DNA of 36,650 nt from IMG/VR virus record IMGVR_UViG_3300009431_000067, positions 1-36,650 of that record; one strand, given 5' to 3'. Positions 4,510 through 36,076 of this stretch are shown piece by piece. Made by a program: the position numbers and the translations under genes. This DNA comes from a virus. How positions within the stretch are numbered: the stretch's first letter is position 1; each line of letters begins with the position of its first letter. The notes below the pieces were generated by a model. It made no database searches. It saw nothing but the letters and a program-made list of their open reading frames with translations, and was not told where the DNA came from.

Positions 4510-4689
4510 ATGTGGAATGAGGAATATAACGAAACGCACGGTAAAGGGCAGATGCCGCCGAACTGGTGAGAGGGATATGATCCCCCCAGGGAGGTGGCAT
4601 ACGAGTCCTGTAAATGGCACCGGGACCTGGGAGATCCCCGGTGTACCGGGTGCCGGAACTTTGAAGGGGAAGATTATTTAAGTGAATGA
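4510..4689 (+). pseudogene. Small zinc-motif protein interrupted by an in-frame TGA
   Basis: The frame from ATG 4510 encodes 19 residues (MWNEEYNETHGKGQMPPNW), then TGA at 4567-4569, then 39 more sense codons to TGA 4687-4689. The downstream part holds CKWHRDLGDPRCTGCRNFEG, a C-x(10)-C-x2-C zinc-like motif typical of tiny phage proteins. Its stop overlaps the methyltransferase start by 8 nt, as expected for a translated gene in an operon. No ATG restarts the frame after the TGA; a GTG at 4594 has no properly spaced ribosome-binding site. It may be a recent nonsense mutation, readthrough, or initiation at an unusual codon. Confidence 0.4.
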
Positions 4690-5377
4690 TCAGCTCGAGA
4701 TATTTCGTGGGGAAAACAGGGCGATTAAAAAAGGCTTAATCCGATCGGTTTCAACCAAACAGGATCAGATTTTACAGTGGATAATGAGCCTCTATTGTCC
4801 GAATGGCTTTGATCTTGACCCGACGTACGGCGCCGGAGGTTTTTATCGGAAGATACCGAGGCCCAAATATTGTTTTGATCTGTCTCCACGTCTCGCTGCA
4901 GTAGGGAAAGCCGATGCTCGTTTCCTTCCCATCAAGAGCAAATCCCTGAGAAGCATTATCTTTGATCCTCCCTTTCTCGCTCGAGGAGGAGAAAACGGAA
5001 TAATGAATAGCAAGTATGGGGCCGGTGGGCTTCCTGATGAGCTATGGTCCTTGTTCTATCAGGCCATGTGCGAGTTTGTGAGAGTCTTAAAGCCTCAAGG
5101 TGTGTTGGTCTTTAAATGCCAGGATTATATTTACGGCAGAACTCAATATATGAGTCATGTTGAGATCATGAACTATGCTGTTGAGTTAGGTCTCTACCCC
5201 AAAGACATCTTTATCCTCATCTCCTTCTCGAGGCCTATCTCCTGGAATCACTCCAATCAAAATCATGCCCGGAAATTTCATTCCTATTTCTGGGTGTTCG
5301 GCAAACAAAAGCGATCGGTCGGGTATTCTCGGGACCCGAGAGTCACCGGAACCAGAAAGGAGGTACAGTATGCCTGA
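4682..5377 (+). CDS. DNA methyltransferase with DPPF motif (N6-adenine or N4-cytosine type)
   Basis: 231 residues with a GTG start, GGGGAAG about 12 nt upstream. The SAM-binding motif I appears as DLDPTYGAGGFY (residues 44-55). The catalytic motif IV is IIFDPPFLARGG (about 92-103), the amino-methyltransferase signature. VLKPQGVLVFKCQDYI (about 138-153) is a typical later strand of the Rossmann fold. No endonuclease gene lies next to it, so it is an orphan enzyme, probably marking phage DNA against host restriction or regulating genes. It overlaps its neighbours at both ends, showing tight operon packing. Confidence 0.85.
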   Translation: MNDQLEIFRGENRAIKKGLIRSVSTKQDQILQWIMSLYCPNGFDLDPTYGAGGFYRKIPRPKYCFDLSPRLAAVGKADARFLPIKSKSLRSIIFDPPFLARGGENGIMNSKYGAGGLPDELWSLFYQAMCEFVRVLKPQGVLVFKCQDYIYGRTQYMSHVEIMNYAVELGLYPKDIFILISFSRPISWNHSNQNHARKFHSYFWVFGKQKRSVGYSRDPRVTGTRKEVQYA

Positions 5378-14944: not shown

Positions 14945-16756
14945 ATGGCAGAAAAGCACAAATTGGTATCCCAGATCAAGGATGATTATTTCCGGTACAT
15001 GAAGAATGAGCGTCTGGATCTGGAGGATACCTGGAACCTGGCCTATGATGCCTTCAGGGGGATGTACTCATCCGGGAACCTGAAAAAATGGAAAGCCCTG
15101 GAAGGATCGGAATGGCGGAGCAAGGTATTTGTCCGGTTGACCAAGGTGAAGGTCGTTGCGGCTATCTCGCAGATCGAGGACATCTATTTTCAGGGGGGGA
15201 AACTACCCTATAACCTGAACCCCACACCCGTACCGGAAACGGCCCCCGGTTTCTTTCTCGATCCCGTGGTGGCCGATCAGCGGTGCAAGCGGATGAAACT
15301 CCGACTTGACGATCTTCTCGTTCAGGGGAAATTTGAGCGTAAACTAATGGGCGCATTGCTGGAAAAGGCGGTATATGGCATGACCGTTCATAAATGCCCG
15401 GTGATCAGACCCATAAGCCGGATGGGTTATGAACTATTTTTACCCCAGATGTCGGGTATAAATTTTTTCCCCAATACCGAGCTTCTCCATCAATTCGGCA
15501 GGCACCGTTTGAACAAACAAAATATCATGACCCCAACCGTGGAACACCCTAATTTGTGGGACATCTTCTGGGACATGGAATACGAGAATCCCCATGAAGG
15601 ACAGGGAATCGTCCACCGGGTCAAGATGAGTCCGGGCATGCTCTGGCAGTATGCGGACCGGGAAGGCTACGACAAAGAGGCAATAAAGCGTGCGGTCAAA
15701 AATGCGGGTGAGAACAGCGCCAGTGGAGATCAATCAGACCCCCCAGGGCAACGTAACCTCCAGAAGCGCCGCAGGAACATTGAAGTTATCGAATGGAATG
15801 GCCGGGTGGATAAAGCGTGCCTGAAGGATACGCCCATGGAGGAATATTCTCAAAGCGGACGTGAAGTAGAGATCTTTACAGTCCTGGCCGGTGATGAGAT
15901 TATCCGCCCCCCCGTATTGATGATCAATCCCATGGGAATCAGGCCCTATAATTTTTCCTATTGGGAGAATATACCACATGAAAGCAAGGGGGTCGGTATC
16001 CCTGAGAACGTGCAGGATTCCCAGATGATGGTCAACTCCGGGGTCCGGTGCTTTATCGACAACAAGGCCATATCGGGCAACGTGCTGATGGCGGGGAATC
16101 CCCGGAACTTGGCCCCTGGACAGAACCGGTCAGTCTATCCAGGCAAGTTTTTTGAGCTGGCCGAGCATATTGATGATTACCGTCATGGAATCCAGTTTTT
16201 CTCTCCTCCGGACGTGGGGAGAGGGCTTATGGAGCTGGTTAATCTTTTCAGGAATTTTGCGGATGAAGAGGCGAATCTCCCCCGTTTGGTCCAGGGGGAG
16301 AGCAGCAAGAGCGACCCAAAAACCGCCTTTGCATTCTCCCGCCTGATCATGAATGCCAACAAACAGCTTGGCAAGGTCATCCGGAATACGGATGAAGGTC
16401 TGGTAGAGCCGGACGTGGAAAATCTCTATCATTGGGAGATGGCCACGAATCCGGATGAAAATATCAAGGGGGATTTCCGGGCCAATGCCACGGGATTTTC
16501 ATCCTTCCAGGATCAGGTCATGCGAGGGCAGAACCTACAGAACTACCTCCTGTTCGCCCTGAGCAATAAGATGCTGGCCTTGATGGTAAAACCCATGTCC
16601 TTTATGCGCGAGATCGCCATGACCCGTGATATCGATCCGGATGAATTCCTGGTGACGGATGACGAGTTCGAGGGCAAGGCCGCACAATTCCTAAGCATGC
16701 TCACCATGCCGGGCAGCCCCATGGCCGATGAAGAGGAATTGCTCAATGCAGCGTGA
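14945..16756 (+). CDS. Portal protein
   Basis: 603 residues, the usual length for podovirus portals, and in the right position after terL and before scaffold and capsid genes. Recognisable portal-like features include a helical N-terminus (FVRLTKVKVVAAISQIEDI), ENIPHESKGVGIPENVQDSQ (a 'G.gipe...~~Q..~N' stretch), and the helix QDSQMMVNSGVRCFIDN. The dodecameric portal is the channel through which TerL pumps DNA. Overlaps the next gene's start. Confidence 0.8.
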   Translation: MAEKHKLVSQIKDDYFRYMKNERLDLEDTWNLAYDAFRGMYSSGNLKKWKALEGSEWRSKVFVRLTKVKVVAAISQIEDIYFQGGKLPYNLNPTPVPETAPGFFLDPVVADQRCKRMKLRLDDLLVQGKFERKLMGALLEKAVYGMTVHKCPVIRPISRMGYELFLPQMSGINFFPNTELLHQFGRHRLNKQNIMTPTVEHPNLWDIFWDMEYENPHEGQGIVHRVKMSPGMLWQYADREGYDKEAIKRAVKNAGENSASGDQSDPPGQRNLQKRRRNIEVIEWNGRVDKACLKDTPMEEYSQSGREVEIFTVLAGDEIIRPPVLMINPMGIRPYNFSYWENIPHESKGVGIPENVQDSQMMVNSGVRCFIDNKAISGNVLMAGNPRNLAPGQNRSVYPGKFFELAEHIDDYRHGIQFFSPPDVGRGLMELVNLFRNFADEEANLPRLVQGESSKSDPKTAFAFSRLIMNANKQLGKVIRNTDEGLVEPDVENLYHWEMATNPDENIKGDFRANATGFSSFQDQVMRGQNLQNYLLFALSNKMLALMVKPMSFMREIAMTRDIDPDEFLVTDDEFEGKAAQFLSMLTMPGSPMADEEELLNAA

Positions 16757-16985: not shown

Positions 16986-17599
16986 AGAAAAAAGTAACCA
17001 AGAAAAAAATCTTTTTATCCATACTGCTTTTGGCTGCCCTTTCGATGGTGATCATGGCCCTCTCCCCACATGAACGTGAAGTGATTAATGCGGAATGGAA
17101 TTTCGAGAAAGGATTAAAGGCCACAGGGGGGAAGATGACTTTTGATACCCCCTGTATCAGCGGTGTAAGTGAATTGGGGTGGACTACCCTGACGTCCGAG
17201 GGTTATTCCGGGGCTTCCGGATTTATTTTGAGAGACATCGATCAGGCGAATCTGTACACATTCGATGCCGATGCAATAACAAATGCCTTTACGGAGCAGA
17301 CGACAGCCGGTGCCGGTACATCCGGTGTGAGCCTTATTGTCATCATCGATATTAATAATGACCACGGGAAGATATTCGGTATCCAAAACCGAACCCCCTC
17401 CGGTACGACCCCCGCCGTTGTGTCGTTTTATGGAAATTTATCCGGAGATTCGCCGTTTTTTGTTGACAGTATTTCATCGGTGACAGAACAAAACATGGAT
17501 GCGTTTGGAGATGTCCAGTGGTATCAGGTCCATGCCCCCCCGAACAATCCAATCCAAACGGGCAATAGTATCTTTGTTGTTAACCGTTACATCCATTAA
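16982..17599 (+). CDS. Exported protein with Sec signal peptide, inside the virion operon
   Basis: 205 residues. The N-terminus MKKKVTKKKIF is highly basic, followed by a hydrophobic core LSILLLAALSMVIMALS and a plausible cleavage site after about residue 28. The mature part is beta-rich, with YFCD-free Thr/Gly/Ser stretches such as TTLTSEGYSGASGFIL and GVSLIVIIDINNDHGKIFG. AAAGAGGAGG lies upstream and the ATG overlaps the previous stop. Function unknown; see the hunt for the set of exported phage proteins. Confidence 0.75.
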   Translation: MKKKVTKKKIFLSILLLAALSMVIMALSPHEREVINAEWNFEKGLKATGGKMTFDTPCISGVSELGWTTLTSEGYSGASGFILRDIDQANLYTFDADAITNAFTEQTTAGAGTSGVSLIVIIDINNDHGKIFGIQNRTPSGTTPAVVSFYGNLSGDSPFFVDSISSVTEQNMDAFGDVQWYQVHAPPNNPIQTGNSIFVVNRYIH

Positions 17600-19272: not shown

Positions 19273-20283
19273 ATGCCAGATCCTACAACTTATTTTGGTG
19301 ATATCACTCCCAGGACCGCAGGCCGGGCCGTGGGGAAACTACTCAAACGTGGGCAGCATATCGAGCTGATCGGTCGAATTGCCGACCCCCACCCCATGTC
19401 AAGAGGCAAGGGAAAGACGGCAATTCTCAGGAGATACGACCGGTCATCCATCGTGACCGCACCCCTGGGTGAGGGCGTGACCCCGGAGGGCCGCAAGATA
19501 GCATCAACCGATTATACCATTGTGCTTCAGCAATGGGGGGATGTCCATGTCATTACCGATGTGATCCAGGATACCCACGAGGACCCGGTCCTTAACGAGG
19601 CCATCGGGATCAATTCGCAGCAATGCATGGAGACCGTGGAAACGCAACGGTTTTATAATCTTCGTGGGGGTACGAGTGTGTATTATGCCAACGGGGCCGC
19701 ACGGACGGACGTCAATTCCTTTACGGCCCGTGGCCAGCTCAGGAAGGTGGTACGGTCGCTAAAATCCAACCTGGCCATGTTCTTTACCGAGATCATCGGG
19801 GCCGGGATCAAGTTTAATACCGAGCCGGTGGGTCCCACGTTCTTTGGTCTGGGTCACACGGACCTGGAGCCGGATATCCGCAACTTAGCCGGTTTTGTGC
19901 CTATTGAGAAATATATCGACATCATCGGCGGAAAAGTCTTGCCCGGTGAGGTGGGGAAATGCGAGAACATCCGTTTTGCCCTCTCGGCCCTGTTTACGGC
20001 CTGGGCCGATGGCGGCGGTGCAGCCGGAGACCGGATCACAACCTCCGGGACCAGCGCAGACGTCTATCCATTACTCATCTGTGCGAAAAACTGTTTCGGT
20101 ACCGTCCCCTTGAAAGGACAAAAGGCCGTGGATATCAAGGTGGTGAATCCGGAAAAGCCCACCAAGTCCGACCCGTTAGGGCAGCGGGGCTATGTGGGCT
20201 GGAAACGGTGGGACGGATCGGGTATCCAGAACGAGAGCTGGGTGTACCGGATCGAGGTGGCCCCAGCGGAAGATCCGGATTAA
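19273..20283 (+). CDS. Major capsid protein, N4-gp56 type
   Basis: 336 residues. DITPRTAGRAVGKLLKRG, then a long linker, RYDRSSIVTAPLGEGVTPEG and WGDVHVITDVIQDTHEDPVL reproduce the order seen in N4 gp56-family capsid proteins (RRY...t.pL.EGvtP; a ~d..v~~~Dv). HK97-like fold by family knowledge. Preceded by scaffold, followed by a terminator and a probable accessory virion protein. Start ATG 19273 has GGAGGGG 8 nt upstream. Confidence 0.85.
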   Translation: MPDPTTYFGDITPRTAGRAVGKLLKRGQHIELIGRIADPHPMSRGKGKTAILRRYDRSSIVTAPLGEGVTPEGRKIASTDYTIVLQQWGDVHVITDVIQDTHEDPVLNEAIGINSQQCMETVETQRFYNLRGGTSVYYANGAARTDVNSFTARGQLRKVVRSLKSNLAMFFTEIIGAGIKFNTEPVGPTFFGLGHTDLEPDIRNLAGFVPIEKYIDIIGGKVLPGEVGKCENIRFALSALFTAWADGGGAAGDRITTSGTSADVYPLLICAKNCFGTVPLKGQKAVDIKVVNPEKPTKSDPLGQRGYVGWKRWDGSGIQNESWVYRIEVAPAEDPD

Positions 20284-23448: not shown

Positions 23449-23742
23449 ATGAGTCTTAGAGAAAGACAGTCCAGGTTCGTTCGTATGGTCGCCCTCCTTA
23501 TTCAGTTTGCCCATGAGAAGGGGTATGAATTGTCTTTCGGGGATGCCTGGGCACGGAAGGGACATAAGGCAAACAGTTTTCATTATATCCGCCTGGCCAT
23601 TGATCTGAACCTGTTTAAGGGAGGCAAATTTCTACGCAAAACCGAGGACCATGAACCACTCGGCCTGTTCTGGGAATCCATTGGTGGGACCTGGGGCGGT
23701 CGATGGAATGACGGGAATCATTACAGCCTGGGGGAAGCATGA
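23449..23742 (+). CDS. Endolysin, peptidase M15 type
   Basis: 97 residues. FVRMVALLIQFAHEKGYELS opens the domain; the zinc motif is NSFHYIRLAIDLNLF (His 45, Asp 52), then EDHEPLGLFWESIG, TWGGRWNDGNHYSLG with the last His ligand and a conserved W. This is the M15C L-alanyl-D-glutamate/VanY-like family used by podovirus lysins. It has no signal peptide, so it needs a holin. Overlaps the next gene by 4 nt. Confidence 0.85.
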   Translation: MSLRERQSRFVRMVALLIQFAHEKGYELSFGDAWARKGHKANSFHYIRLAIDLNLFKGGKFLRKTEDHEPLGLFWESIGGTWGGRWNDGNHYSLGEA

Positions 23743-25292
23743 CCGATCGAATCACTATAAAGCGGTTTCAGGGGATAGCCCCCCGATTTGACCCTCATCT
23801 CAAGCCGGGCTTTGCCAGAACTGCCCAGAATTGCGACCTTTCGGACGGTAAGATCCAGGCCCTCAAGCAATCCTCTCTTCAGGAAGCGGACACGAATAAA
23901 TATAACTCACTCTTTTATTTCAACAGCGCATGGGAGAAGGGGAATGATAAGTATTTTCTGGAATGGAAGATCGGGGACTATGATCTCCTGATCTATCTCA
24001 CCAACGGAGTACCCAAGAAGAAGATCGGGACTTCCGAGGCCAATCTGGGGCAGACCCGGCTCGGTGCGCCCACCGTGGCGACGAACGGTGCCGGCAATGT
24101 CAATGATACGGTCCGGTACATGATCACGACCACGAGGAGCGTAGGGGGCCATGAGGACGAATCCGGGCCTTCCACCCAATCAGATGATATTGTTGCATCC
24201 AATAAAAAGGTCACGGTCACGAGGCCGGATATCAGCGATACGGACGTAACCTACTGGAACATCTATCGCAACGGGGACAAAACCGGGGTCTACCAGCTTG
24301 TAGCACAGGTGGCCGCCGCAACCGCCGCCTATGACGATAATGTCGATGAGGATGACCTGGGTGCATCCCCCACAACCTGGTACACGTCGGATCAGGGGAA
24401 CTCCATCATATTCGATACCCCACAGGTGACCTTTGACGGTCTGATCACCGAACCCTTTACCGGCATGCTCTTTGCCTGGAAAGGGCCAACGCTTTACTGG
24501 CCCGAACCGGGATACCCGGACGCATGGCCGGACTTTTACAATATGAATTTTCCCTCAGACATCAAGCGGGTGATCCCCTTTGCCGGCACCCTGGCCGTTT
24601 TGACCGAGAAGGGACCCCACCGGGTAGACGGGACCCACCCGGAGCTATTGCAGCCGAGCAAGGTCCTGGGAGAAGAACCCTGCACCGGATTGGCGGCCTG
24701 CCCCACACCCAGGGGCGTGGCCTACCTCTCGGATTCGGGCGTGGTCCTCTTTAACCTCATTGATACGTCGGTCCTGTCGGATTCCAATTTTACCGAGGAA
24801 TGGTTTAACAATAACGTCTCCGCCACGGGCGCACACCTGGCAGAGAATGACAATAAGCTCTTTCTCTTTCATTCGGGAGGGGTCCTGGTCCTGGATGCCA
24901 GGGTCAAGCCATGGATCTGGCATACCTTGAACATCATCGCCTATGCCTCATTCAAGAATAAGAGCGATGGGTATGTCTATTACATGGATGATTCCGGGAT
25001 CCAGAAACTCCACGGGGCAGACTCCCCCCTAACCTGGACCTGGATGTCCGGGGATATCATCGGCAAACATGCCCATGACAAGCCCTTTAACGAGGTGGAG
25101 GTCATGGGATCGGGGGCGGTCACCCTCTCTCTTATAGTGGATGATCAGAGTAAGGCCAGTAAGACGTTGGGCTTTGATATGTACCGAAACCGGGTTTTAA
25201 AACTCCCAGAGCATACATTAGGCCGGGCCTTGCAGTTTGAGCTTTCCGGCACGGGCACAATCACCGAGGTAGAGGTCAGATATTCGTCATGA
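23739..25292 (+). CDS. Tail/neck protein of beta-propeller type
   Basis: 517 residues. ITIKRFQGIAPRFDPHLKPG and ARTAQNCDLSDGKIQALKQS at the start are typical of podovirus tail-nozzle/stabilisation proteins (G~~pr.d...l..g.A..a.NcdL..G.l.pl). The middle has a fibronectin-like stretch (VTYWNIYRNGDKTGVYQLVA) and the second half repeats beta-blade-like segments (TLAVLTEKGPHRVDGTHPEL; PTPRGVAYLSDSGVVLFN). Likely the tail nozzle or DNA-stabilising plug. Confidence 0.65.
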   Translation: MTDRITIKRFQGIAPRFDPHLKPGFARTAQNCDLSDGKIQALKQSSLQEADTNKYNSLFYFNSAWEKGNDKYFLEWKIGDYDLLIYLTNGVPKKKIGTSEANLGQTRLGAPTVATNGAGNVNDTVRYMITTTRSVGGHEDESGPSTQSDDIVASNKKVTVTRPDISDTDVTYWNIYRNGDKTGVYQLVAQVAAATAAYDDNVDEDDLGASPTTWYTSDQGNSIIFDTPQVTFDGLITEPFTGMLFAWKGPTLYWPEPGYPDAWPDFYNMNFPSDIKRVIPFAGTLAVLTEKGPHRVDGTHPELLQPSKVLGEEPCTGLAACPTPRGVAYLSDSGVVLFNLIDTSVLSDSNFTEEWFNNNVSATGAHLAENDNKLFLFHSGGVLVLDARVKPWIWHTLNIIAYASFKNKSDGYVYYMDDSGIQKLHGADSPLTWTWMSGDIIGKHAHDKPFNEVEVMGSGAVTLSLIVDDQSKASKTLGFDMYRNRVLKLPEHTLGRALQFELSGTGTITEVEVRYSS

Positions 25293-25564: not shown

Positions 25565-25897
25565 ATGGCCGAGACCGTAAAGAGATTGGGGGCCACAACC
25601 GTTGTGGCCAATACGGATACAACGCTTTACACCGTGCCTGCCGGTACCAGCGCGGTGGTATCTTCCGTCGTTGCCTGCAACCGGGGTGCCGGGGCACACA
25701 CCTTCCGAATAGCCCACGTGGACGGTGCCATCGGCGTGGTGGCCAATGAGGACTATATTTTTTATGACAAAGCAGTGGCAGCAAATGATAGTGAACCCTT
25801 TACCCTGGGGATCGCCATGGAGGCCGGGGACACCCTCCTGGTACGGGCAGACCATGCAGAAGTCAACTTTATCGCATGGGGAGCGGAGATCACATGA
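25565..25897 (+). CDS. Small beta-sandwich virion protein
   Basis: 110 residues. LGATTVVANTDTTLYTVPAG then VSSVVACNRGAGAHTFRIAH and GIAMEAGDTLLVRADHAEVN are the hallmarks of a recurrent phage family ('lYtvPags...vs~l~~~N.....~fri'; 'l~aGd.l~v'). Members are virion decoration or tail proteins. GGGAGGATAGGGT lies upstream. Confidence 0.7.
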   Translation: MAETVKRLGATTVVANTDTTLYTVPAGTSAVVSSVVACNRGAGAHTFRIAHVDGAIGVVANEDYIFYDKAVAANDSEPFTLGIAMEAGDTLLVRADHAEVNFIAWGAEIT

Positions 25898-26373
25898 TGG
25901 AAAAAAGGGAGATAGAGATCCGGAAACAGAAGATCTTGACCGATAAACTGATCTATTTCATGAAGGGCAACCTGGATGCCGTGCGATTTTGCATTGATAT
26001 CGTCTACATCGCCCACCTCTGGGATGATCTGATTGACAGGGATATCGAGAGATCAGGCCATGATATTAACCAGGCGTTCCGGATTGCGCTGATGGATATC
26101 CCTTCAAATCCATTCTATTACAACAATATGTCAGATCTCCGGCCCTTAATGATGAATGCTATCCTTCAATGGCAGGATGCCAATATCCTGGAGCGGGGGA
26201 CAAACCACGAGCGCCACATGGCTTATATGCTCAGGGCTTCGTTTTTACAGATATTCAATTATTGCGCTTACCTGGTCGGAGGCCCGGAGTGGGTCAAGGA
26301 GATAGGCCCGGACATGAGAAGGCTTTATGAAGAGCCTTTGGAATCTTTTATGGAGGAGATGAACAATGCCTGA
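25894..26373 (+). CDS. Helical virion-region protein
   Basis: 159 residues from ATG 25894, overlapping the previous stop. Mostly helical. LDAVRFCIDIVYIAHLWDDL followed by IDRDIERSGHDINQAFRIAL, and IPSNPFYYNNMSDL, reproduce a recurrent phage pattern (hlwDDlID.D...in.~f..~~~~iP.NPFy). Function unknown; its place suggests a morphogenesis or ejection accessory. Confidence 0.65.
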   Translation: MMEKREIEIRKQKILTDKLIYFMKGNLDAVRFCIDIVYIAHLWDDLIDRDIERSGHDINQAFRIALMDIPSNPFYYNNMSDLRPLMMNAILQWQDANILERGTNHERHMAYMLRASFLQIFNYCAYLVGGPEWVKEIGPDMRRLYEEPLESFMEEMNNA

Positions 26374-27172
26374 TCCAGTAACAGGAGTATTAGCAGGTAC
26401 AGCGGTCATAGGGGCCGGCGCAACTGTATACTCGGCCAAGAAATCCAGCAAGGCCGCTGCATCTTCCACCCAGGCACAGAGAGAGGCCACAAGCGAGCAA
26501 TCGATATATCTGGGCAAGATGGCCGATGTTGCAGAGGAGCAATTGGGTCTGTCCAGGGAGCAGTTGGCCCTTGCACAGAAGGAATCGGCCAGGGCCGATC
26601 AGGCATGGAACCGGTATACATCGGTCTTTATGCCCATAGAGGACGAATTGGTCCGGCAGGTCAAGGAAATGCCCGAAGAGCCTCCGGGACTCGCAAGGAT
26701 GATCGGCACCATTGACCGGGGCTATTCGGATCTGGAGGGGAATCTCCGGCGTATGATGGCCGGGAGATACCAGCACGGGTCCGGATTGGAGCGGGGGACC
26801 ATGGAGCGGACAGAATTGGGCCGGACCAGGGCCAAGGCCGGGGCCAAGGCGGATGCCATTTCTGCCTGGGAGAATGAAAAATTCAACCGGATGATGCAGG
26901 TCGCCGGATTCGGAAGGACATCCGCACCTTTGATGACTGTTAGTGGAGGGTATGCCGCCCCAATATCGACCATGGGATCGACCGGAAATATGTTTACCAA
27001 CATAGCCGGCCAGTATGGCGGCCAGGCAGCCAATTACGGCAATATGGCCAATATGTATAACCAGGCCACAGCCAACACCTGGGCCTCAGCCGGGAACACG
27101 GCAGGGAATCTCATGCAGATGTATCTATTAACCCAGGGCGGAAAAGGAGGCCCTCCGGGTTTCATGGGATAA
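26366..27172 (+). CDS. Ejection (DNA-transfer) protein 1
   Basis: 268 residues. Hydrophobic Gly/Ala start (GVLAGTAVIGAGATVYSAKK), a long coiled-coil (SSTQAQREATSEQSIYLGKM, then SREQLALAQKESARADQAW), and a Gly/Ala/Asn-rich tail ending GGKGGPPGFMG. This architecture is typical of small internal virion proteins that are injected ahead of the DNA in podoviruses, and the two following large genes are also ejection-like. Confidence 0.65.
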   Translation: MPDPVTGVLAGTAVIGAGATVYSAKKSSKAAASSTQAQREATSEQSIYLGKMADVAEEQLGLSREQLALAQKESARADQAWNRYTSVFMPIEDELVRQVKEMPEEPPGLARMIGTIDRGYSDLEGNLRRMMAGRYQHGSGLERGTMERTELGRTRAKAGAKADAISAWENEKFNRMMQVAGFGRTSAPLMTVSGGYAAPISTMGSTGNMFTNIAGQYGGQAANYGNMANMYNQATANTWASAGNTAGNLMQMYLLTQGGKGGPPGFMG

Positions 27173-27186
27173 AAAAGGAGGAAACA

Positions 27187-27396
27187 ATGGATAATTATAG
27201 TTTAGATCAAAGATTTACGTATCATTCACCGAAAGAGGATCAACCTGAACGATATGAAAAAATCAGGAATAGAGGCAGAAAGTTTGCAGATCTTATCAAT
27301 GAGTTTTGTCCGGAAAGCCGGGAAAAGTCACTGGCTATAACGAAACTGGAAGAGGCAGTCATGTGGGCAAATGCCTCAATAGCCCGGAATGAATAG
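27187..27396 (+). CDS. Acb2/Tad1-like cyclic-nucleotide sponge (anti-CBASS/anti-Thoeris candidate)
   Basis: 69 residues; AAAAGGAGG precedes ATG 27187. The sequence FTYHSPKEDQPERYEKIRNR (residues 10-29), then FADLINEFCPESREKSLAIT and KLEEAVMWANASIARNE at the C-terminus, matches my recollection of the Acb2/Tad1 hairpin-domain family (fkYH.P..dQ..rY..iR..a...A..i...cP.SREkSlAlt.lEeavmwANAaIARNe). Known members bind cyclic di- and trinucleotides made by CBASS and related defences. The gene lies between two ejection-protein genes. Family assignment is from memory, not a search. Confidence 0.75.
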   Translation: MDNYSLDQRFTYHSPKEDQPERYEKIRNRGRKFADLINEFCPESREKSLAITKLEEAVMWANASIARNE

Positions 27397-27410
27397 GGGT
27401 AGCTTTTTTC

Positions 27411-27437
27411 AATCAACAATCAACAATCAACAATCAT
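27411..27437 (+). repeat. Tandem heptamer AATCAAC spacer
   Basis: AATCAAC is repeated three times (27411-27431) and followed by AATCAT, in the 43-bp gap before the next ejection gene. An 11-bp direct repeat ATTGACTATTG (22161-22171, 22182-22192) fills another short intergenic gap. Simple-sequence spacers, no evident function. Confidence 0.5.
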
Positions 27438-27439
27438 AA

Positions 27440-28606
27440 ATGGTGAATATCATGGACTTAGGAATGGGATATGGACTGAATAAAATGTTCGAGGGGTCTA
27501 CGGGCGGTATGCTTCGGGGGACCCTGGCAAAGATGCAACTGGACGATGCTGCCCTGGATCGCCAGGCGACCCATGATTACCGGGATAAGAGTCTAGATCT
27601 CCAACAGCAAAGACTTGACCTGAGTAAACAGCAGATCACCAACCAACAGGATCTTGCCAGGATTCAGCGAGGGGCCAATGCCATCAAGACCGCCCTTGAT
27701 GCCTACACCAAGACCGGGAACAAGGATGTCTTTAACGTGATCTACAAGTCCATGGACCCGGAAGGAGAGATCCCGGATATCGATCTCGACAATAACCGGA
27801 ACACGGTATCCATCAACTGGAAGGGCATGAAGATCAAGGGATATCAGGACAAGATCCAGGATGCGGTCCGGATCATCTCCCAGAACCCGGAAAAGTCACC
27901 GGAGGTCCTTCAAAAGCTGGCCGAGCTGGGCCTTGCAGAGATCGAGATCCCCAAGGAGAAGCCGGATAAGGAAAAGTTTATCACGGTCTCCCCAGGTCAG
28001 ACCGTCATTGACAGCACAGGGAAGCAGATCTATACGGCGCCAGAGAAAGAGAAACCCGAAGGCGATAAAGAGGGCGATATTACCGAGCAGCAAAAGTTTT
28101 TAGCCACACAACAAAACAGGGTCACCAAGGAGGTTGACCGCCTTTATGGTGCCAGTGATTTTAGCGGATTGTTGCCCGATATAGCGGATAAAGCCGGAGA
28201 TGCCAAAGAATTGGCCACCCAGTACGTTGCCGATGGCATGGACATCGGTAAAGCCGCCAACCGGGCCAAACAGGAGACCGATCGAATTTATAGCAGCCTC
28301 GAAAGCATTCCGAAGGCTGATAAAGGCGGTTTGATGGGCCTTGATAAGGATAATATACCCGAAACGGTTGGTATTGTTAAGGTTTTATTATCCTTCAATC
28401 TTGATCAAAATAAAATAATGCTTCGATTAGAAAAAAAGGGATGGTCTAACGAACAGGCTGTGGATATCCTAAAAAAAGCAGGTGGCATAGAAAATACAAC
28501 CAAGGATAATGATAAATCTGAAATTCAATTAATCCAGGAAAGATATAATCTTTATAGAAATCAGGGTAAATCACCCGAGGAAGCACTCAGATTGGCAAAT
28601 CAATGA
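27440..28606 (+). CDS. Ejection (internal virion) protein 2
   Basis: 388 residues. A Gly/Met-rich start (MDLGMGYGLNKMF), a long coiled-coil with ATHDYRDKSLDLQQQRLDLS and KQQITNQQDLARIQRGA, then charged Pro/Lys/Glu linkers (EIPKEKPDKEKF; EKEKPEGDKEGD) and a helical C-terminus (WSNEQAVDILKKAGG). This is the pattern of podovirus internal proteins injected with DNA. ATG 27452 is an alternative start; neither has a clear ribosome-binding site. Confidence 0.65.
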   Translation: MVNIMDLGMGYGLNKMFEGSTGGMLRGTLAKMQLDDAALDRQATHDYRDKSLDLQQQRLDLSKQQITNQQDLARIQRGANAIKTALDAYTKTGNKDVFNVIYKSMDPEGEIPDIDLDNNRNTVSINWKGMKIKGYQDKIQDAVRIISQNPEKSPEVLQKLAELGLAEIEIPKEKPDKEKFITVSPGQTVIDSTGKQIYTAPEKEKPEGDKEGDITEQQKFLATQQNRVTKEVDRLYGASDFSGLLPDIADKAGDAKELATQYVADGMDIGKAANRAKQETDRIYSSLESIPKADKGGLMGLDKDNIPETVGIVKVLLSFNLDQNKIMLRLEKKGWSNEQAVDILKKAGGIENTTKDNDKSEIQLIQERYNLYRNQGKSPEEALRLANQ

Positions 28607-31600
28607 CACTCACACTTGAAATGTTAGAGCAGGGCTATCAGGCCAGCATAAAGGGTCCGGAATCGGGCATTGATATTAATACCCTTGAGCGTAATTATCA
28701 ATCCAGCTTGCAAGCCCCCGATAATGAAATAAACATTAATACCCTTGAAAATAATTACCAGGCTTCCCTTCCCGAACCGGAGAGGACTGAAAAAACTCAT
28801 CCAATCTCCCCGGATATCCTTCCCGAAACAGACGGAGCCCTCCCCGAATCGGAGCCCACTGAACCCATAGCTTATAAGCCTGAAAAAGAGAAAGATGCCC
28901 GGATCACGTTGAGTCCGGATATCGATGAAGTGAAAAAAGCGGGTAAAGCCAGATTAATCCAAAGACAGATCATGGCTGAAATTGTCCGCAGAAAAGATGC
29001 CCTTTTATCAGCCCCCTACAGAAAGGCCCAAAAAGCCAAAGGAGTAACGGATAAGGAGATAGAAGCCGAACTGGGAGGCCTTGAGATCCCTTGGACCGAC
29101 CCTATAGATGCCGGTGTAATTGCAGCCACCGGGGGCGGAACAATGGCCGTGAAACACGGTGCAAAGGCAGGGAAGGTATTGGCCCGGGCGGGTGCCGCAG
29201 CCATCCCCGCAATGGCCACGGATATCCCTATAGGGACGATGGTGGATTCTCTGTCAGAAGACAATCCCGAACTGGCCTTTCTGGCAGCGGTGGGGTTGGG
29301 ACTCACCTCCGGTTTTACCGTGGAGGCCCTGGCTGAACGAAAGCTGGTCAAGCTGGCTTCTGATATCGCAAAGAAACACCCTGAAAAGGCGAAACAGCTA
29401 TTACCCAAGGAGGTTATTAATCGCTTTACCCAGACGGGAATAAAAAAGTTTTCAGACGGGGATGTTATCGGGACAATTAATGAAGATATAGCTGAAGAAA
29501 TCAATAAACTGGGGTTTTCCACAAAGGCCAGTGACGTGATAATACCCCAGAAATCCATTGATTACATTGACAAAAGCCACAAAGGCCAGCTTACGGACAA
29601 AGATATTGAACAGATTCGGGAGACCATAAAAAATCCTTCTGAAGTCTTGCCCAACCTTCCGACCCGGAAAGCTTCATACAGATCAAAGAGCGTTTTTCTG
29701 GTGAAGAAAAACAACAAAGATTATCTTTCCATCGTTGAAGTAACTCCCGGCCAGGATCAAAATACGTTGTGGAACTTCTGGAAAATGGAAAGGAAAAAAG
29801 CCAATAGATATCTGAATAAATTCAGGCAAGAAAAAGCCCGAAGAGTTCAGCCTGAAGGGGCGACCAATGTTCCCTCGTATTCCTCACAACATGGCGATAA
29901 AGCCAAGGTGGGCCAACCGGAGGGTCTTCCCGGAAGTCAGGCTGAACGATCGAGCATCAAGGAAAAGATAACTCAAAAAAAAGAAGATGTCAAGCTCGGC
30001 GTCCATCCTTCCACCATAGCTGGCCCGATCGGGGGGATCTGGGCCGGTATCGAGACCGATGAAGAGGGGAACATCACCATTAACCCGAAAAGAGCCCTTT
30101 ATGGTGCCATGGCCGGAGTCGCAACGGGCAGTGCCATAAAACCCGCCAGGAGACTTGCCCATAAGATGGCCCGTGGATGGGAAAAAAGAGTAGCCGAGCC
30201 TTTCCTGGATTCTTTGGAAAACACGGTAAACGGCATGATCGTCCACGAGGATCTCCGCCGTACCCTTGGCATGGGACGTTCAAAGGAGTTCCGGGACATG
30301 ACCAGGAACTTTCACCGGGATGTCTCGACTCTCTGGGATGAAGCGACCCGGATCGGCCATGAAATACAGCAGATCGCCCCGACCCAAATAGAGCAAAGAC
30401 GTATGCTCCAGATTATCAAAGGCAGCGTTACAGCCAACCCGGATCTCAATAAAAAGGCCGAAAAGGTCAGGGTACTTTTTGACCAGTTAAGAGAAAAATT
30501 GAAAGAATATAAGCTGTTGGAATATTCCCGCTTCGATAATCTGACCCGGAAGGAAAGGGCGGAGATAAGGAATCTGATCGCCGGTCCGGATCCCGAGACG
30601 ATCGACAATCTTCAGGATCTCAGGCAGTATGCAAAGGAACTTGGTATTGATGTAAAAAAAGAGGTGGCCAGAGAGGAAATAATAAAAGATATCCAGGGAA
30701 AGCTTGATTTTGAGCGATCCAGACTCAATGATTACTACCACTTCGGGAGCGCCCAGGAGTACGCCCCCATATTTTACAGAAAACACGAGGGGCTTTCTCC
30801 TCAAGAGAAAAAGGCATTAAAGGAGGAAATCCGCAATCTCAAGCGTCAATCCCGGCGCGGAAATCCTGAAGGCTCCCAGGAGCTGGAGCCCATGATTATT
30901 GATCTTGAAAAGCTCCTCAAAAAGGGAGGCAAATTCAAGGTAGGCAGCCGGCATCAGATGGATAAGGGATACAGCCACCGCAGGCAGGAAATCCCCGTGG
31001 AGATCCAGAAGATCATGGGCAGGATTGAGGAGGCCCCCTTTCCCGTTGCAAAAGCCATCGGAACGCAGTCCACGGATGTCAGAAAGGCCCAGTTCTTCAA
31101 GGATATCGCCGCCAATCCCGAATGGGTGATGAAGAAGAGACGAAACACGGTAATTCCTTCAAACTTTGTCAAGGTCCAGGACGATCGCTTTGGTGCCTTG
31201 AACGGGCTTTATATCAGAAAAGACATCTGGGAGGATCTCAGGGAAGTTGAAGAGTGGCGGGGCTCGTTTTTAAAAAATTATGATAAGGCCATGGGATGGT
31301 GGAAGTACGGGAAGGTGATCTTGAATCCGGCCACCCATGCCAGAAATACCATGAGCAATACAATCCTTGCCTATATGGGCGATGTTTCGCCGGCCGATGT
31401 CAAGACCTATTCCAGGGCCTTCAAGGCCGTCCGGGAGGGAGATAAGAATGTGTTCTACAAGGAAGCCCAGGGATGGGGGCTTTTCAATAATACGTTCTAT
31501 TCGGCAGAAATTAATAAGTTTCGGGATGAGCTTTTGACCCTGAAAGATCCGAAATCCATGAAAAATTGGATAAGGAAAGTATTTTCAGCACCCGGCGATC

Positions 31601-32586
31601 TTTACCAGGGTAATGAAAAACTGTTCAAAATGGCCGTGTACATCAAGGCCAGGGACTCCGGCATGGATATTGACGCGGCAGCCCGAAAGGCCGAAAAGTT
31701 CATTTTTAATTATGCCGATATCCCCCCCTGGGTAAAGCACATGAAACGGTGGGTCTCTCCCTTCTTCACCTTCACGTACAAGGCGATTCCTCTCGCCGCA
31801 GAGATGTCCATAAGAAAACCCTGGAAAATGGGCGCGATTGCAGCCTCCATGTACGGAATGGAAGAATTGGCCAGAAGGCAATTTGGATACAGCCGGGAGG
31901 AACTGGCAAAAAAGAGAGAGCAGCTTCCCGAATGGCAAAAGGGCAGGGTGCCCCCGCTAATTGGCCCCTATGCCCATGTCTTAATGCCTTTCAGAGATAA
32001 GTGGGGGAATGATCTCTATCTGGATATGTCCTATATCCTGCCCTATGGCACCGCAGCCGAGAAATGGGGTCAAAGCATTTTGCCCTTCAGGGATATATTG
32101 CCCAACAATCCCTTGTTTCAACTGAGTGCGGCAATAGCAACAAACAGGGATCCTTTTTCAGGTAAAGACGTAGCCAATCTTGTCCTTGACGGTACGGCCA
32201 AGGTCATGGGCAAATACCTTGAGTACGCCTGGCGAGAGATGGCACCGAGCATGGCCCCTGGAGGATACGGCTTCAATAAGATCAAGACCGGGATCCAGAA
32301 TATTTTCAAGGATAAGCCGGTACTCGATTGGGCGGACCGCCCCCAGGAGCTCCAGACTGCCTTGTTAAGCTCTATATTCGGCATTAAGCTATCTCCGGCC
32401 AATGAGCGAAAATTGAAGGAATACGAGCTCAAGACACGGAGGATGATTTCCCGTGAAGTCTATAAAGAGGTCGGTAGACTCAGGAAACGCTACGAGAGGA
32501 ATGAAATAGAGTTGGATGAATTCAGAGAGAAAGCCCGTGATCTCGAAGAATTGAGGAGGAAGCTTTTGGGGAGGAGGTCTGATTGA
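28603..32586 (+). CDS. Large ejected polyvalent protein with probable BECR-fold nuclease segment
   Basis: 1327 residues, the largest gene, overlapping its neighbour by 4 nt. Residues 2-60 are three tandem ~20-residue repeats (LEQGYQASIKGPE; LERNYQSSLQAPD; LENNYQASLPEPE). Residues ~170-240 are Gly/Ala-rich and membrane-active-looking. Residues ~318-410 (IDYIDKSHKGQLTDKDIEQI; KSVFLVKKNNKDYLSIVEVT; WKMERKKANRYLNK) resemble phage Barnase/EndoU/ColicinE5/RelE-like nuclease domains. Residues ~475-530 are another Gly/Ala segment, ~540-800 helical, and ~890-1080 (WKYGKVILNPATHARNTMSN; AARKAEKFIFNYADIPPWVK) resemble large polyvalent-protein-associated domains. Likely injected early; domain names are from memory. 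Confidence 0.65.
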   Translation: MTLTLEMLEQGYQASIKGPESGIDINTLERNYQSSLQAPDNEININTLENNYQASLPEPERTEKTHPISPDILPETDGALPESEPTEPIAYKPEKEKDARITLSPDIDEVKKAGKARLIQRQIMAEIVRRKDALLSAPYRKAQKAKGVTDKEIEAELGGLEIPWTDPIDAGVIAATGGGTMAVKHGAKAGKVLARAGAAAIPAMATDIPIGTMVDSLSEDNPELAFLAAVGLGLTSGFTVEALAERKLVKLASDIAKKHPEKAKQLLPKEVINRFTQTGIKKFSDGDVIGTINEDIAEEINKLGFSTKASDVIIPQKSIDYIDKSHKGQLTDKDIEQIRETIKNPSEVLPNLPTRKASYRSKSVFLVKKNNKDYLSIVEVTPGQDQNTLWNFWKMERKKANRYLNKFRQEKARRVQPEGATNVPSYSSQHGDKAKVGQPEGLPGSQAERSSIKEKITQKKEDVKLGVHPSTIAGPIGGIWAGIETDEEGNITINPKRALYGAMAGVATGSAIKPARRLAHKMARGWEKRVAEPFLDSLENTVNGMIVHEDLRRTLGMGRSKEFRDMTRNFHRDVSTLWDEATRIGHEIQQIAPTQIEQRRMLQIIKGSVTANPDLNKKAEKVRVLFDQLREKLKEYKLLEYSRFDNLTRKERAEIRNLIAGPDPETIDNLQDLRQYAKELGIDVKKEVAREEIIKDIQGKLDFERSRLNDYYHFGSAQEYAPIFYRKHEGLSPQEKKALKEEIRNLKRQSRRGNPEGSQELEPMIIDLEKLLKKGGKFKVGSRHQMDKGYSHRRQEIPVEIQKIMGRIEEAPFPVAKAIGTQSTDVRKAQFFKDIAANPEWVMKKRRNTVIPSNFVKVQDDRFGALNGLYIRKDIWEDLREVEEWRGSFLKNYDKAMGWWKYGKVILNPATHARNTMSNTILAYMGDVSPADVKTYSRAFKAVREGDKNVFYKEAQGWGLFNNTFYSAEINKFRDELLTLKDPKSMKNWIRKVFSAPGDLYQGNEKLFKMAVYIKARDSGMDIDAAARKAEKFIFNYADIPPWVKHMKRWVSPFFTFTYKAIPLAAEMSIRKPWKMGAIAASMYGMEELARRQFGYSREELAKKREQLPEWQKGRVPPLIGPYAHVLMPFRDKWGNDLYLDMSYILPYGTAAEKWGQSILPFRDILPNNPLFQLSAAIATNRDPFSGKDVANLVLDGTAKVMGKYLEYAWREMAPSMAPGGYGFNKIKTGIQNIFKDKPVLDWADRPQELQTALLSSIFGIKLSPANERKLKEYELKTRRMISREVYKEVGRLRKRYERNEIELDEFREKARDLEELRRKLLGRRSD

Positions 32587-34133: not shown

Positions 34134-34961
34134 ATGAATAATGTAATCAATTTTAGTGATGGAATAGATGAGTATCCCTTAGAAATTATTGATGCAAATG
34201 ATGATAAATGGATACTCGCTCAACAGGTTGGTGAGGCTCTTGGTAATAAAAACATAAGAGACCTTATAAATTCTTTAAAAGAAAAGGGAGAGCTTACGGA
34301 TGGTAAACACATATGTAAGGTTACCTTACAGATGGTCGATGATACTCAGCCGAGAAAATATTCTATTCTTTCTTATCGAGGCATTATCCGGGTCTCCATG
34401 CGGAGTGAAGGAGAGCGGGCAATCCTGTTCAGGGATTGGGCAGAGGATGTGCTTTACGAGGTAATGACTACAGGATCATACAACATGGTCCGAAATGACA
34501 TCAACCGGCATTTATTGGATGAGGCGAGGGTCATTGAGCGGACGGCCCGGATCTTCAGGGCCATCGTGTTCATGGCCAGGACAGCCGGATTCAGGTCCTC
34601 CCAGGCCATTGCCAGGGGGAACATGGTTACCAGGGAGAAGACCGGTATTGACTGTCTCGATCTGATCGGAGCCCCTTATCTGACCGAGCCGGATTCCATA
34701 GGGCCCTATATCTCCGAGCAGTGCGAGATAAAGCCGGATCTGGTAGTTTCAACGCTCGATCTCCATGACAATTACAAGGTCTGGTGCCGGTCAAAGGACA
34801 TTATCCCGGTGGGCAGGAACACCTTTTTTCGGGAGCTCCTGGCCCAGTATCCGGATATCGAGAGAAAGCCCTACGGGCCGGATCGCCTGGCCCATTTCGT
34901 GGGGATCGGGTTCGTCTCCGATGCAGCCCCTGAGGAATGGACGGAAGGGGGTGATGCCTGA
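34134..34961 (+). CDS. BRO-N domain protein (antirepressor-like)
   Basis: 275 residues; TAGGAGA precedes the ATG. Residues ~10-115 form a BRO-N domain: WILAQQVGEALGNKNIRDLI, YSILSYRGIIRVSMRSEGER and ILFRDWAEDVLYEVMTTGSY. Residues ~205-265 (LDLHDNYKVWCRSKDIIPVG; NTFFRELLAQYPDIERKPYG) look like a winged-helix tail of the phage primase/antirepressor type. The first ~260 bp are AT-rich and the rest GC-rich, suggesting a mosaic gene. BRO proteins often act as antirepressors. The stop overlaps the integrase start. Confidence 0.75.
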   Translation: MNNVINFSDGIDEYPLEIIDANDDKWILAQQVGEALGNKNIRDLINSLKEKGELTDGKHICKVTLQMVDDTQPRKYSILSYRGIIRVSMRSEGERAILFRDWAEDVLYEVMTTGSYNMVRNDINRHLLDEARVIERTARIFRAIVFMARTAGFRSSQAIARGNMVTREKTGIDCLDLIGAPYLTEPDSIGPYISEQCEIKPDLVVSTLDLHDNYKVWCRSKDIIPVGRNTFFRELLAQYPDIERKPYGPDRLAHFVGIGFVSDAAPEEWTEGGDA

Positions 34962-36076
34962 TGGGAAAATTTAACGACATCACCGAAGCGGTCGGGGCCC
35001 TTTTTAATTACCTGAAATACCAGAAGGGCCTGAGTTTGAACACCATCCTTGCGTACGGGTATGACCTCAAGGTCTACGGGGAGTACCTGGAGGCAAAAGG
35101 TTTGTCCTTTGCAAAGGTCAAGACCGATGATATTGACCGGTTTATCACGTATTGCGGCAAGGAGCTGGAGAACAGCATCCGGACCATAAACCGGAAGATA
35201 GAGTCCCTTAAGGCGTTTTACAAGTATCTATACCGGATCGATGAGACGGACGATAACCTCATGAAAAAAATCGATTCTCCGAAAATGAAGAAACCCCTCC
35301 CCAAGTTCCTGAAGGCCGACCAGCAGGAAAGGCTTCTGGACTATTTTGCCAAGCGGCCGGAGAAACAGCGGATCACTCGGTTTATCAAGAAACGGGACCG
35401 GGCCATTGCCATGATATTCATTGACACGGGCGTGAGGGTGTCCGAGCTCTGCAACATCCGGATCGAGGACATTGATTTTAATCAGGGTGTCCTCAGGGTC
35501 ATGGGCAAGGGCAATAAAGAGGCCGAGGTAGTGCTTTCACCCAGGCTCATGGCAGCCATGAAGCACTATATTAAACAGGTCAGGCCGCATCTCCTGAGAA
35601 AGGGGCGCATCGTTAAGCTGAAAAAGAAGGGTAAATATTCGACTCGAAGGCATTTACCTGGAGGCGGAGAGAGGATCATTCAGCCGGTCTGCTCCAAGAA
35701 AGATGCCGAGAAGGCCCTTTATGATAATCTGGATCCGGACAAGGGGTATCTGTTCATCAGGAATGGAAAGAAAAAACTGGATACCCGGCATGTGTTCAGG
35801 ATCCTCTCTCTGGCCGGCCATGCCCTGGGCTTTCGGGTCCATCCCCATCTCCTGAGGCACACCTTTGCCAGCAACCTACGGAGAAAAGGGGCTGACCTCC
35901 TCCTCATCAAGGAGGCCCTCAGGCACGAGGATGTCTCCACCACACAGATCTATGCCCATATATCGAGCGCGAGGTACAAAAAAGAGATCGGCAGATATCT
36001 GGCGGACGATCATGACCAGGATCCTCAAGACAATCGCCTCAAGGTAATTCGGGGCGGGAAAGGAGGCCGGCCATGA
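34961..36076 (+). CDS. int: Tyrosine recombinase / integrase
   Basis: 371 residues. SAM-like N-terminal DNA-binding domain (LFNYLKYQKGLSLNTILAYG; RTINRKIESLKAFYKYLY). Catalytic residues are complete: Arg159 (TGVRVSEL), Lys183 (VMGKGNKE), His296-x-x-Arg299 (HPHLLRHTFAS), His322 (LRHEDVS) and Tyr331 (TTQIYAHIS). A ~50-residue basic insertion (about 208-258) lies between the Lys strand and the HxxR helix. It should integrate and excise the phage DNA. Sits in an operon with BRO-N and an unknown gene; att sites not identified. Confidence 0.9.
   Translation: MGKFNDITEAVGALFNYLKYQKGLSLNTILAYGYDLKVYGEYLEAKGLSFAKVKTDDIDRFITYCGKELENSIRTINRKIESLKAFYKYLYRIDETDDNLMKKIDSPKMKKPLPKFLKADQQERLLDYFAKRPEKQRITRFIKKRDRAIAMIFIDTGVRVSELCNIRIEDIDFNQGVLRVMGKGNKEAEVVLSPRLMAAMKHYIKQVRPHLLRKGRIVKLKKKGKYSTRRHLPGGGERIIQPVCSKKDAEKALYDNLDPDKGYLFIRNGKKKLDTRHVFRILSLAGHALGFRVHPHLLRHTFASNLRRKGADLLLIKEALRHEDVSTTQIYAHISSARYKKEIGRYLADDHDQDPQDNRLKVIRGGKGGRP

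Follow-up and report, generated by a model that had tools for sequence, protein, structure and literature searches.

Does the small gene found between two late genes of this virus encode an inhibitor of bacterial defence and, if so, how did it come to be in a late operon? The window analysed here is the whole of a 36,650-bp linear virus record, and the gene in question encodes a protein of 69 aa (MDNYSLDQRFTYHSPKEDQPERYEKIRNRGRKFADLINEFCPESREKSLAITKLEEAVMWANASIARNE). A sequence-only reading had proposed an Acb2/Tad1-like protein that binds cyclic nucleotide signals, citing N- and C-terminal motifs that are indeed present in the translation, and had called the position among late genes unexpected. 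The features of the region are listed in Table 1. The two genes that flank the hairpin gene are probably ejection-protein genes, judging from gene order and weak similarity; searches of Pfam and PHROG returned only sub-threshold family matches for the upstream gene and no family match for the downstream gene. The large protein encoded next includes a PBECR3 nuclease-like domain at residues 297-401, barely above the Pfam cut-off (32.6 bits vs 30). An anti-repressor-like gene and, after it, an integrase gene are found at 34134-36076, and the phage is therefore probably temperate. Most relatives of its capsid protein are in proteobacterial genomes; Victivallales and one archaeal MAG supply the others, and all of them are distant.

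Table 1. Positions of the hairpin gene, its cassette and the late genes around it in the window
Feature	Position	Strand	Description	Basis
Portal/head-tail adaptor gene	14945-16756	+	Upstream of the hairpin gene	
Major capsid (head) protein gene	19273-20283	+	Upstream of the hairpin gene	
Internal-virion/stabilisation protein gene	23739-25292	+	Upstream of the hairpin gene	
Upstream late gene	26366-27172	+	268 aa, probable internal virion/ejection protein	Gene order; L092 homologue
Inserted cassette	27173-27439	+	267 bp	Missing at the matching L092 junction; GC
Leader	27173-27186	+	Upstream stop codon to ATG, with the gene's own strong ribosome-binding site directly 5' of the start (AAAAAAGGAGGAAACA ATG)	Read directly
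Hairpin gene	27187-27396	+	Acb2-type hairpin protein, 69 aa, ATG to TAG	Frame read directly; PF24729, AlphaFold2, Foldseek, residue conservation
Putative ligand residues	Y12, R27, T52		In the 69-aa hairpin protein	
Short direct repeat	27410-27437	+	Two 14-nt copies (CAATCAACAATCAA) in the linker 3' of the hairpin gene	
Downstream late gene	27440-28606	+	388 aa, probable internal virion/ejection protein	Gene order; L092 homologue
Next gene	28603-32586		1327 aa, probable ejected protein	

The protein is a member of the Acb2/Tad1 hairpin family. The Pfam profile PF24729 was matched over its entire length (1-58 of 58) with 86.1 bits (E 1.9e-24), far above the curated cut-off of 27 bits, and the positive control, Vs.4 (Acb2) of phage T4, which experiments have established as a sponge, scored 71.4 bits. 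PHROG 1454 was also matched (103 bits), while NCBIfam and PADLOC gave no match. With tblastn, 192 phage records were found to contain relatives (E 1e-5). Relatives are also encoded in 176 viral-contig stretches, and 80 viral-contig loci were taken for comparison. The two profile matches and the 176 stretches rule out a chance open reading frame. In several Paenibacillus phages (e.g. MH460826, bases 35106-35321), hairpin genes are labelled 'putative phosphomannomutase', apparently a misannotation. When a profile built from 61 relatives was compared with the proteins of solved structure, the best match was Acb2 homolog 43 (PDB 9PTQ, E 1.9e-5), followed by Tad1 and then, weakly, by Vs.4. Acb2 homolog 43 differs, as aligned, in having neither the WANAAIARN ending nor the YHxPK motif.

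The single-chain AlphaFold2 model (pLDDT 93.6, pTM 0.76) comprises a short helix (residues 3-9) and two long ones (19-40 and 45-68), and so contains the helical hairpin that the sequence-only reading had supposed. This layout matches the shape of the Acb2 protomer, which is made up of one short and two long helices (PMC10419184). In a Foldseek search of the PDB, the structure of Vs.4 with cGAMP (7uq2) took the first and second ranks with a probability of 0.96-0.98, and Tad1 the third to fifth. The E-values, none better than 0.3, are weak, and a helical hairpin this short can be expected to give such values. When viral predicted models were searched, each of the ten best matches carried the name Acb2/Tad1 hairpin.

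The conserved positions include residues that affect ligand binding by T4 Acb2. In T4, the Y8A variant is deficient in binding and T68M lowers affinity (PMC12657230). T4 Y8 corresponds to Y12 in the MAFFT alignment and occupies the same position in the Pfam profile register, and T68 corresponds to T52 in the hhalign alignment. The 69-aa protein was compared with 69 relatives. Of these 70 sequences, 66 retain Y12 and 66 retain T52, and all 70 have R27, the counterpart of T4 K23 in the alignment. The tyrosine and the basic residue are separated by 15 positions (Y12/R27), as in T4 (Y8/K23). The Acb2 of PaMx33 presumably has its basic residue, K26, 15 positions after Y11. T4 Acb2 thus shares with the 69-aa protein the Pfam family over the full profile, the helix arrangement and the ligand-site tyrosine and threonine, but it is longer (88 aa), with a longer hairpin, has lysine in place of the arginine and is only 23% identical in a pairwise comparison. 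The T4 gene, vs.4, also differs in location, being near tk and regB and not among virion genes.

The comparison with Tad1 (PDB 7UAV, 7UAW and 8KBE) is more limited. Both proteins have the C-terminal helix motif SRE...T..EEA.MW.N, but Tad1 also has an N-terminal domain formed by an antiparallel beta-sheet, and this is absent from the all-helical model of the 69-aa protein. Identity with Tad1 was ruled out on this basis and the family label narrowed to Acb2-type. The earlier family assignment is supported by the profile, the predicted fold and the conserved ligand-site residues, and of the outcomes named beforehand as refuting it, neither the lack of a family match nor a predicted fold without the helical hairpin was observed. 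It is nevertheless conceivable that the protein is a sponge for a signal outside the tested range of Acb2, for example the gcADPR of Thoeris, as Tad1 is. The shared C-terminal motif would suit such a role, as would the presence next to the hairpin gene, in one relative, of a gene for the Thoeris inhibitor Tad3 (L072:9150-9476, PF25185, 114.7 bits, about 0.5 kb upstream). However, the beta-sheet that the 69-aa protein lacks contributes to the gcADPR pocket of Tad1 (PMC12043709), and we consider this explanation improbable. The Tad3 gene and the hairpin gene of that relative are a possible counter-defence pair, and the nearness of Tad3 fits a counter-defence role for the hairpin gene. Two other relatives have, immediately 5' of the hairpin gene, a 41-43% homologue (L006:9381-9980 and L007:9594-9980) of the DNA methyltransferase gene of the window (4682-5377, phrog_24333), which here is 22 kb from the hairpin gene.

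To account for the location of the gene, the window was compared with a syntenic phage, L092, which was found via the capsid gene and shares the portal (48%), the capsid (52%) and the gene at 23739 (55%). Homologues of both flanking genes were found in L092, the upstream one at L092:16469-17053 (E 9e-33) and the downstream one at L092:17050-18162 (E 4e-24), and there the two share 4 bp (ATGA, 17050-17053). The hairpin gene was not found at this junction or elsewhere on the L092 record. In this single syntenic relative the site is therefore empty, and the 267 bp were either inserted in the window or lost from L092. Recent gain is favoured over loss because the segment has a GC content of 0.38 (whole window, 0.49) and the hairpin gene has a GC3 of 0.36 (the two genes beside it, 0.56-0.64). 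The hairpin gene is probably a mobile one-gene extra, or moron. The direct repeat in the linker downstream of it is of the CAATCAA type.

Other relatives gave less information on the junction. No relatives of the downstream gene were found in viral contigs, and a search of the same contigs with the upstream gene found three, with short N-terminal matches only. Pseudoalteromonas phage Y3, the capsid of which is 38.5% identical to that of the window, has the same annotated order of portal, N4-gp56-type capsid, adaptor and stabilization protein, but provides no second empty site as its genes after the stabilisation gene are not homologous. Bacterial or archaeal genome records supplied 25 related capsid genes, and the stretches surrounding these do not contain the hairpin gene either. 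A further slot in the late operon varies, as the 165-aa gene at 25876-26373 (PHROG 21390) is replaced in L092 by an unrelated 156-aa ORF. No promoter match was found upstream of the hairpin gene and, given this and its position, the simplest inference is that it is probably co-transcribed with the late operon.

Hairpin genes are found in a variety of locations in other phages. In the Gordonia phages Gray and UBSmoodge, the gene is within the late operon, directly after the portal gene and before an RNA ligase gene. These are phages of a different type, and their hairpin proteins are members of the same family (42-59% identity), but the junction occupied is between portal and RNA ligase rather than between probable ejection-protein genes. 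The gene is near the left end, before the terminase, in Marshawn, adjoins an endolysin gene in KimJongPhill, and is among replication or nucleotide-metabolism genes in the Paenibacillus phages Bob and Heath and the Mycobacterium phage Anthony. In 70 viral-contig loci, the commonest nearest large neighbours belong to terminase, portal, head-protease and head-morphogenesis families. Amongst 44 larger records, a terminase, portal or Mu-F gene could be placed in 32, and in 19 of these such a gene and the hairpin gene are no more than 5 kb apart, compared with 8.3 expected if placement were uniform. A count this high arises in about 2 of 100,000 simulations, but this figure overstates the enrichment, since several families were picked after the neighbour tally and some of the records, many of them fragments, are related. 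In a rough non-head control, phrog_124 was near the hairpin gene (about 1 kb) in 1 of 8 records. We treat the bias towards head modules as a lead, not as proof. A late position can hardly be called unexpected, however, when relatives so often adjoin terminase, portal or head genes.

The same proximity could indicate that the protein is a minor virion or assembly component in which the hairpin fold has a structural use, which would explain its place in the head module here, within 5 kb of head genes in the 19 relatives and directly after the portal in the Gordonia phages. Against this, the absence of the gene from L092 and from the stretches around the 25 capsid genes indicates that virions of this kind can do without it; in other relatives it is found among replication or nucleotide-metabolism genes, and the residues important for ligand binding by T4 Acb2 are conserved. 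A structural role is therefore very unlikely. That a sponge is packaged in the virion, enters the cell alongside the ejection proteins and acts as soon as infection begins is more remote still, as the position between two probable ejection-protein genes is the sole point for it, and the clean insertion of a foreign-looking gene accounts for that position without packaging, while relatives occupy many other positions.

The best explanation is that the gene very probably encodes an Acb2-type sponge for CBASS signals, carried as a one-gene moron by a temperate podovirus-like phage and made with the late proteins. By homology with Acb2 proteins of known structure, the 69-aa hairpin would form a hexamer, with pockets that include Y12, R27 and T52, and would hold cyclic di- and/or trinucleotides stoichiometrically, without cutting them. 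CBASS effectors would then not be switched on, and the same may apply to type III CRISPR effectors that use cA3. The gene would have been gained between two late virion genes and, with its own ribosome-binding site and no recognisable promoter, would be expressed at the same time as the head and ejection proteins. Even if made late, the sponge would be of use against a host system that is triggered late. Phages without acb2 escape CBASS via capsid mutations (reviewed in PMC10419184) and a capsid protein is reported to activate another bacterial immune system directly (PMC9712102). It may be that selection maintains this Acb2 subfamily within or beside head and virion modules, its production being timed with that of virion proteins that can trigger nucleotide-signalling defences, and that this also explains the location here, among ejection-protein genes, which might even lead to delivery with the virion, though this broader proposal is rather doubtful.

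The Acb2 family was already known and the 69-aa member is in itself ordinary. It adds a predicted, compact Acb2-type sponge in a temperate podovirus-like phage, and this subfamily appears here as a mobile single-gene cassette that is often beside head genes. If the bias towards head modules holds in an unbiased survey, phages may time the production of the sponge to the appearance of virion proteins.
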